From NCBI GenBank assembly GCA_017430535.1, contig JAFRMR010000015.1, positions 1 through 50,442 of the forward strand: a stretch of DNA of 50,442 nucleotides, in the 5' to 3' direction. The notes below the pieces were generated by a model, which saw only the letters and a program-made list of their open reading frames with translations, was not told the origin of the DNA and searched no databases. The first letter of the stretch is position 1. The number at the start of each line of letters is the position of its first letter. The position numbers and the translations under genes were made by a program. Shown here piece after piece: positions 17,559-18,330 of the stretch. Source of the stretch: Clostridia bacterium. GTDB taxonomy: Bacteria > Bacillota > Clostridia > Oscillospirales > Acutalibacteraceae.

Positions 17559-17580
17559 TTTCAAAAGGTAGGCTTTATGG
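17559..17580 (+). repeat. Left inverted repeat of the invertible segment
   Basis: The 22 bp from 17559 begin TTTCAAAAGGTAGGCTTT and end ATGG. The reverse complement of 17698-17719 is identical except for one base. The repeat lies 52 bp upstream of the first cohesin gene. It is the probable left recombination site of the adjacent serine recombinase. Confidence 0.9.
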
Positions 17581-17697
17581 TAAAAGCGCTGACCAAGGAA
17601 TTGATTTGATTATTTGCTGAAAATCTGTTCAGCTTTTTGTGTAAAATTGTTGACTTTGCTGGTATTTCATAGTAAACTTACCTTATAGATAATTGTT
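17581..17697. promoter_or_regulatory. 117-bp invertible promoter segment
   Basis: This gene-free segment is bounded by 22-bp inverted repeats (21 of 22 identical), starts 73 bp upstream of the cohesin operon start codon and ends 27 bp before the recombinase stop codon. It holds one good promoter that reads rightward. Inversion would turn that promoter to read left into the cohesin operon. No equally good minus-strand promoter is visible inside it now. The call of a phase-variation switch is inference from repeats, promoter and recombinase together. Confidence 0.82.
17650..17678 (+). promoter_or_regulatory. Sigma-A-type promoter inside the invertible segment, pointing away from the cohesin operon
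   Basis: TTGACT at 17650-17655 and TAAACT at 17673-17678 are separated by 17 bp. In this orientation transcription would run rightward through the right repeat and antisense across the recombinase gene. After inversion the same boxes would lie at 17623-17628 and 17600-17605 on the minus strand, giving a leader of about 85 nt to the first cohesin gene. Confidence 0.65.
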
Positions 17698-17719
17698 CCA
17701 AAAAGCCTACCTTTTGAAA
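17698..17719 (-). repeat. Right inverted repeat of the invertible segment
   Basis: CCAAAAAGCCTACCTTTTG starts at 17698 and the repeat ends with AAA at 17719. It is the inverted partner of 17559-17580 with one mismatch. It lies 5 bp beyond the recombinase stop codon, the tight linkage typical of a recombinase and its own site. Confidence 0.9.
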
Positions 17720-17724
17720 CAAAA

Positions 17725-18330
17725 TCAGCCTTTGCTCTGCAACTCATATTCCCTTAATCTGCGATAAAATGTAGTCTTGCTGAGACCGGTTAATTCCATT
17801 GCCTCGGCAAGTTTTATTTTTCCCCGGTGAAAGTCTTTTGCAACATCGGCAAAATTTTCCGGCGCCTCAATAACGGGTCTTCCGAACTTAACACCCCGTG
17901 CCTTCGCCGCGGCGATGCCTTGCGCCTGACGCTTTTTGATATTGTCGCGCTCGTTTTCGGCAACAAAGGACAGCACGGCAAGGAATAAATCGGAAATAAA
18001 GGTTCCGAGCAGGTCCTTATACGGCCTTGTATCAAGAATAGGCATATCAATAACGCAAATATCAACACCGATTTCTTTTGTCAGATAACGCCACTGCCGC
18101 TGGATTTCTTCATAGTTGCGTCCGAGCCGGTCGATGCTCAGTATGTAGAGCAGATCACCGGGTTTTATCTTTTTCATCATCTTCTGATACTGCGGCCGCT
18201 CGAAATCTTTGCCCGACTGCTTGTCGATAAAGATGTTTTTCTCCGGCACTTCCTTTTCTTGCATTGCTATTAACTGTCGGTCTTCATTCTGATCTGTAGA
18301 AGACACTCTCACATATCCGTAAATGTTCAT
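17725..18330 (-). CDS. Small serine recombinase, probable DNA invertase (Hin-like)
   Basis: This 201-residue protein has the resolvase/invertase catalytic domain: [16 protein letters not shown] with nucleophile Ser10, [12 protein letters not shown] with conserved arginines, and the E-helix region [19 protein letters not shown] before GVKFGRP. A C-terminal helix-turn-helix (~170-195, [20 protein letters not shown]) binds the recombination site. The length matches Hin/Gin/Pin invertases and Tn3-type resolvases, not large serine integrases. ATG follows GAGGAGGGCAAAAG. The inverted repeats begin 5 bp past its stop, so promoter inversion is the most likely reaction. Its own promoter is probably shared with the small HTH gene 56 bp upstream. 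The rightward promoter in the invertible segment would transcribe it antisense, a possible feedback. Resolvase function instead is possible but less consistent with the inverted site layout. Confidence 0.9.

Follow-up and report, generated by a model that had tools for sequence, protein, structure and literature searches.

The cohesin/dockerin operon

The analyzed window, that is, the whole stretch of 50,442 nt, contains a four-gene operon on the minus strand, preceded by a pair of inverted repeats, a recombinase gene and a short ORF (Table 1). Cohesin and dockerin domains, the features by which cellulosomes are recognized, score here above the cut-offs; the cohesin of gene 2 was found in the whole-genome scan (39.6 bits) but not when the protein itself was scanned against Pfam. 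The product of the operon looks like a self-assembling surface complex, in function unlike a cellulosome, and, judging from its domains, it may serve in adhesion, wall remodelling or antagonism. The protein encoded by gene 1 has a hydrophobic-basic tail (WAAGL...FGR, positions 16737-16830), possibly a surface-retention signal; the first protein of the operon at locus L244, in another species, has a similar tail (7037-7130).

Table 1. Features of the locus and their positions in the window
Feature	Positions	Strand	Remarks
Mob_Pre relaxase	1-900	-	cut by contig end; within DNA common to contig C13
Operon gene 4	2284-9882	-	2532 aa, scaffoldin-like, 3 cohesins, 2 dockerins, Big_3 repeats
Operon gene 3	9951-15524	-	1857 aa, phage-type lysozyme domain, repeats, C-terminal dockerin
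Operon gene 2	15521-16729	-	402 aa, cohesin (16292-16627), hydrophobic C-terminal segment
Operon gene 1	16737-17507	-	256 aa, one cohesin, signal-peptide-like start
Operon-side repeat arm / putative crossover site	17559-17580	+	centre CT in operon sense
Segment proposed to invert	17581-17697	.	117 bp between arms
Sigma-70-like promoter TTGACT-N17-TAAACT	17650-17678	+	consensus match only
Recombinase-side repeat arm / putative crossover site	17698-17719	-	centre AG in operon sense
Serine recombinase	17725-18330	-	201 aa, PF00239 (2.3e-28)
69-aa ORF upstream of recombinase	18387-18596	-	DUF6471-like, below cut-off
Last stretch shared with C13	19301-19984	.	93% in two stretches

The recombinase and the small upstream ORF

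Columns with Ser10, Arg8, Arg68 and Arg71, which we take to be the catalytic residues of PF00239 serine recombinases, are invariant in the alignment of ten recombinases, identifying the protein as a serine recombinase. The first-pass annotation had called it Hin-like, and this part of the assignment does not hold, since the nearest solved structures are those of Sin and Tn552 Bin3 (9.6e-32), with gamma-delta/Tn3 resolvases also outscoring the DNA-invertase chains (1.9e-13). The NCBIfam equivalog model of Mpi yields 44.2 bits, far below its cut-off of 272. The nearest named matches, among the best 80 of 592, come from metagenome-assembled genomes of Oscillospiraceae and other Clostridia.

The 69-aa ORF is kept together with the recombinase in the genus, being located 60-66 nt upstream of it in the window and in loci L035 and L037-L041, and 62 nt upstream in L051; its relatives were found in 12 loci overall. 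It may regulate the recombinase or act together with it.

Inverted repeats and the promoter between them

The two 22-bp inverted repeats around 117 bp, described in the first-pass annotation, are indeed present and complementary at 21 of 22 positions; the gap of 5 bp between them and the recombinase is also correct, and the distance to the first operon gene, given there as 52 bp, is 51 bp. The arms can be extended to 27 nt with 89% match. This is the only pair in the window with at least 21 of 22 matches at the spacing of 40-300 bp, and none was obtained in 20 windows simulated by the first-order Markov model. At up to three mismatches, the repeat occurs in three places in its own genome, all of them at the two recombinases that this genome encodes (see below). 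The recombinase-side site forms a 13-pair stem (17693-17722) that was also scored as terminator-like on the minus strand, and that might act as a brake on read-through from the recombinase to the operon.

The promoter TTGACT-N17-TAAACT, noted previously, is found in the segment as well. It faces the recombinase rather than the operon (the direction had not been given before), so the assembled state is the OFF state for the operon. The hexamers are no better than expected by chance, with 8 promoter-like sites in 4.1 kb and the shuffle mean of 10.0; within the 117-bp segment alone, the promoter score is matched by 3% of shuffles. A promoter claim based on the window alone was therefore dropped, and the case for the promoter rests on related loci. 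In the assembled orientation, no promoter-like site was found on the minus strand in the stretch separating operon and recombinase. Following inversion, the -10 hexamer would be at about 17600-17605 of the minus strand, approximately 93 nt before the start codon of gene 1; the invertible segment does not include the ribosome-binding sequence of the operon (both by hand). The locus thus has the composition of an inverton: inverted repeats enclosing a promoter (by consensus) beside genes that can be regulated, and a site-specific recombinase linked to the repeats.

Survey of related recombinase loci

The survey covered 93 loci, namely, the best 80 of 592 confirmed named matches and 13 loci from the same genome and its relatives, this selection being not random. 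A repeat pair with the score of at least 13 is located just downstream of the recombinase in 54 of these 93 loci (47 from the best 80 named matches, 7 from the own genome or relatives), compared to 5 of 465 control positions. The first arm lies at -2 to 136 nt from the last recombinase codon (median 28.5), and the sites read TCAAAAGGT-GT-ACCTTTTGA or near it, with, on average, 8.4 and 8.1 of 10 flanking pairs being palindromic (7 and 5 in the window). The centre is non-palindromic in 52 of the 54 selected loci (GT/AC in 43, AG/CT in 7, AA/TT in 2); serine recombinases acting on inverted sites with a non-palindromic centre produce inversion, not resolution.

In the same 54 segments, no more than 5% of shuffles match the promoter score in 36 cases in the direction of the recombinase and in 3 cases in the direction of the cargo, and the difference of this score from the dinucleotide-shuffle score is 3.80 (s.e. 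0.32) and -0.45 (s.e. 0.25), respectively. When the state is called by the score difference of two units between the directions, 45 of these segments are OFF, 4 are ON, and 5, including that of C13, are ambiguous; given this ratio, many switches may rarely flip. Among 15 survey pairs with alignable segments, four are inverted, all of them involving genome G028, and 11 have the same orientation.

The remaining 39 of the 93 survey loci are below the repeat threshold, with less than 300 nt available downstream in four of the 93. Three sub-threshold loci outside the 54, L038 and L039 (both OFF) and L040 (from G028, ON), have recognizable sites; the others may lack a switch. In viral contigs, repeat scores of at least 13 were obtained for 8 of 76 scored loci (from 78 listed among the best 80 matches), and the segments of four alignable viral locus pairs have the same orientation.

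Cargo genes were assigned by a crude rule, surely wrong in some loci: among the ORFs whose start is no farther than 500 bp from the second arm, the longest was taken. By this rule, first cargo genes encode surface proteins (Flg_new and fn3 proteins, a VWA/pilin-like protein), as well as glycosyl- and glycerophosphotransferases, a sugar transferase, an Eco57I methylase, AMP-ligases, an NRPS-like protein, a lipase and a TnpB-like protein; ten of the 29 scanned cargo genes have no family at 0.001. The module is also seen in a named isolate, Faecalicatena faecalis AGMB00832 (L063), ahead of a VWA/pilin-tip-like gene.

Restriction-modification-linked modules and an inverted segment

Recombinase matches at 1e-30 or better were found in 10 of 45 genomes of the genus. 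In G013 and G037, restriction-modification genes (Eco57I methylase, ResIII) lie behind the module, and the first genes of G012, G018 and G028 resemble those of G013 or G037; Pfam signals of these first genes are weak (24.5 bits in L037 and 19 in L040 with the cut-off of 27, none in L039). In G030, a recombinase of the window group is present, and no repeat pair was found there.

The orientation of the segments in related genomes, which the first-pass annotation had proposed to check, differs. In four sister species, G012, G013, G018 and G037, the promoter TTGATT-N17-TAAAAT is directed at the recombinase; relative to them, the 112-bp segment of G028 is inverted, and the same promoter is directed at the cargo. 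Being flipped, the G028 segment is identical to those of G012, G013, G018 and G037 at 94/111, 92/108, 88/111 and 89/111 positions, respectively, and the best local matches of the unflipped segment are short or poor (21/28 in G012, 41/70 in G018). Both flanks align to the sister species without flipping, and the segment length of 112 bp is unchanged.

A probable second switch in the same genome and the shared backbone

The only paralogue of the window recombinase in its own genome is encoded in contig C13 (89% identity; the window itself is contig C12), and it is also followed by a repeat pair (10600-10621 and 10738-10759). Promoter-like sequences between these repeats are near-equal in both directions (scores of 11.0 and 10.0 for the recombinase and cargo directions, respectively). 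The cargo comprises genes for three proteins: one with collagen repeats and a cohesin, one of 186 aa lacking Pfam matches, and one with LRR and a dockerin. All seven above-cut-off cohesins of the genome are located behind the two switches, five in C12 and two in C13, and of nine dockerin matches four are in the two switched operons. Dockerin-bearing plant-polysaccharide hydrolases were found neither in these operons nor at the four scanned of the five other dockerin loci (all except C17:24152). ORFs at three of these four loci are rich in Flg_new repeats, and two of the four have dockerins at 0.001, under the Pfam cut-off. An eighth cohesin match, below the cut-off, is in C25. Repeat pairs upstream of the latter gene (L258, C25 6388-7215) were rejected as ordinary intergenic repeats, as they lie within hairpin-rich long direct repeats.

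The first 1.8 kb of C12 and C13, including the Mob_Pre relaxase gene, are 91% identical, and stretches with 85-93% identity continue from the recombinase-side site to position 19984, the operons in between being unrelated. The two copies of the backbone thus are 1-1802 plus 17692-19984 in the window and 1-1800 plus 10732-15330 in C13 (L035). Both contigs start within the relaxase gene. The C13 backbone also contains a gene for a HipA-like protein with an HTH domain (L035, 12603-14006), whose flanking stretches almost adjoin each other in the window. The first 20 kb have a GC content of 0.38-0.41, which is 0.49-0.52 at 20-35 kb, where aldolase-like, SMC, topA and dprA genes are found; since it drops again, to 0.38-0.43, past 35 kb, it is weak as evidence. 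No tRNA gene was found in the window, nor were element ends or an integrase. The simplest reading of these sequences would be an integrated mobilizable element present in two versions with differing cargo.

Other cohesin operons

Genome G041 has a collagen/cohesin operon behind the same kind of switch, and this cargo and the operon of C13 are homologous (51.5% over 996 columns). In the tree of 34 recombinases chosen by hand from the 93 survey loci, both recombinases of the studied genome, that of G030 and five restriction-modification-linked ones form a supported clade (100/99). The G041 recombinase is outside this clade, and thus recombinase and cargo histories differ.

The G016 operon is orthologous to the window operon (38.5% identity of the first genes over 257 columns). 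Upstream of it there are perfect 18-bp repeats 212 bp apart, with the promoter TTGAAA-N17-TATACT facing the operon (by eye; one orientation was seen), and a gene for a tyrosine recombinase (PF00589) ends 57 bp upstream. That two unrelated recombinase classes precede orthologous operons hints that switching of the complex has been selected for.

Relatives of P0002 occur in 29 of 300 family genomes. No repeats were found upstream of two related operons in G025 or in 540 bp upstream in G031, and 17 family regions at cohesin operons contain neither a repeat pair with the score of at least 16 nor a relative of the two recombinases. Among 19 regions from the genus and the own genome included in the scan of the family regions, repeat pairs were found only in L244 and L258. 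In the comparison that covered G025 and G031, the regions L247, L249 and L252 are uninformative about upstream sequences, as their anchors are inside genes. In L246 (G021, 2694-4097) a serine recombinase with 35% identity is convergent with a cohesin gene, and no repeat pair was found. Given the different recombinase of G016 and the G025, G031 and 17 family regions without a switch, switching of cohesin operons appears patchy and involves two recombinase classes.

Proposed mechanism and alternative explanations

The geometry of repeats and recombinase, far more frequent than in the control, the non-palindromic centres, the above-chance promoters of the segments, the inverted state in G028 and the repeat-flanked promoter in G016 all support the interpretation proposed in the first-pass annotation. 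Very probably, as far as can be judged from sequence, the locus is a phase switch in which a serine recombinase flips a promoter before the cohesin/dockerin operon. The recombinase would recombine the two sites, flipping the 117-bp segment. In one orientation, the promoter would transcribe the operon, with a predicted start approximately 85 nt before gene 1; in the assembled one, it would face the recombinase gene from its 3' side, leaving the operon OFF. The cohesin proteins, the scaffoldin-like protein and the dockerin-bearing protein with the lysozyme domain would then make up a phase-variable surface complex. Recombinase activity, control of expression, assembly at the surface and a population mixed in display are what we infer here.

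It is improbable that the recombinase is a mere mobile-element resolvase (Sin/Tn552 type), with the repeats serving as resolution sites and no regulation involved. The closest solved structures, of Sin/Bin3 resolvases, agree with this explanation, as do the Mob_Pre relaxase in the DNA common to C13 and weak sub-cut-off Mob_Pre matches in L037 and L039. However, the sites are mutually inverted and have a non-palindromic centre, which implies inversion rather than resolution, a promoter signal lies between them, and, among the other survey loci, many of which are short, relatives of the relaxase (tblastn, 1e-5) are present only in L035 and L120.

A fixed structure, i.e. a relic switch or operator-like repeats without flipping, with the promoter producing antisense RNA against the recombinase, could account for the better promoter facing the recombinase in 45 and the cargo in only 4 of the 54 segments from the best 80 of 592 matches plus 13, and for the same orientation in 11 of the 15 alignable pairs of this survey. 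Yet the G028 segment is inverted at equal length, and repeat arms and non-palindromic centres are conserved, making this explanation, too, unlikely. The least credible one, with a very low probability, is a small transposon-like element (MITE) of 161 bp: its size and terminal inverted repeats are compatible with this, but the position just after the recombinase in 54 loci (of the best 80 of 592 plus 13), the quasi-palindromic sites, no target duplication evident by eye, and repeat copies in the own genome confined to two recombinases (three places, at most three mismatches) argue against it.

Within the interpretation as a phase switch, a broader and rather doubtful suggestion is that the 69-aa-type small ORF, the recombinase and the invertible promoter form a portable module of Clostridia, which has moved before exchangeable cargo, at least here on a mobilizable element. 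The cargo types found behind the module are cohesin/dockerin complexes, restriction-modification systems, glycosyltransferases, and ligase and NRPS-like genes. In such a module, antisense RNA running into the recombinase would stabilize the OFF state, which could be why most assemblies are OFF.

If the complex is indeed phase-variable, a population could be mixed in its display. More widely, the module would couple a local recombinase to the adjoining switch and provide a sequence rule for phase-variable genes in Clostridia: quasi-palindromic sites, mostly with GT/AC centres, just after a recombinase.

Comparison with known systems

Promoter inversion is a well-known mechanism of phase variation. 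The DNA invertases Hin and Gin are small serine recombinases that invert promoters using dyad sites with a 2-bp non-palindromic centre. The window switch shares with them the small serine recombinase, the dyad sites with a non-palindromic centre and the promoter; unlike in Hin/Gin, the recombinase gene is outside the segment and by sequence is nearer to Sin/Bin3, so that it is not counted as Hin/Gin kin. Mpi of Bacteroides fragilis is similar in being a serine recombinase that has promoter segments of surface loci as its targets, whereas the sites in the window adjoin the recombinase. Invertible promoters of gut bacteria ('invertons') were reportedly described by Jiang in 2019; like the window switch, they have short inverted repeats around a promoter, a recombinase nearby and surface genes downstream.

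The accessible text of PMC11868660 and PMC11892184 treats promoter inversion as known, the former covering Hin as well. In the latter, as far as its accessible text goes, a Clostridia inverton group (139) is tied to tyrosine recombinases, unlike the window switch with its serine recombinase and recurrent geometry, and the words serine, cohesin and dockerin are absent from the main text. For cellulosomes and the amylosome of Ruminococcus bromii, the accessible part of PMC5814915 describes cohesin and dockerin domains on extracellular proteins, and the word 'phase' is absent from the main text. In contrast to these systems, the only hydrolase domain of the window operon is of the lysozyme type, and the operon is behind a switch.

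The first-pass annotation knew of no invertible promoter controlling a cohesin-dockerin system. No paper on point was found in the open-licence literature for phase variation together with cohesin/dockerin or cellulosome (PMC3796261, in its accessible part, likewise), which does not prove absence from print; no occurrence of the repeat-site sequences was found in the same literature. Compared with the systems listed above, both the serine-recombinase module with exchangeable cargo and the cohesin/dockerin target look new.
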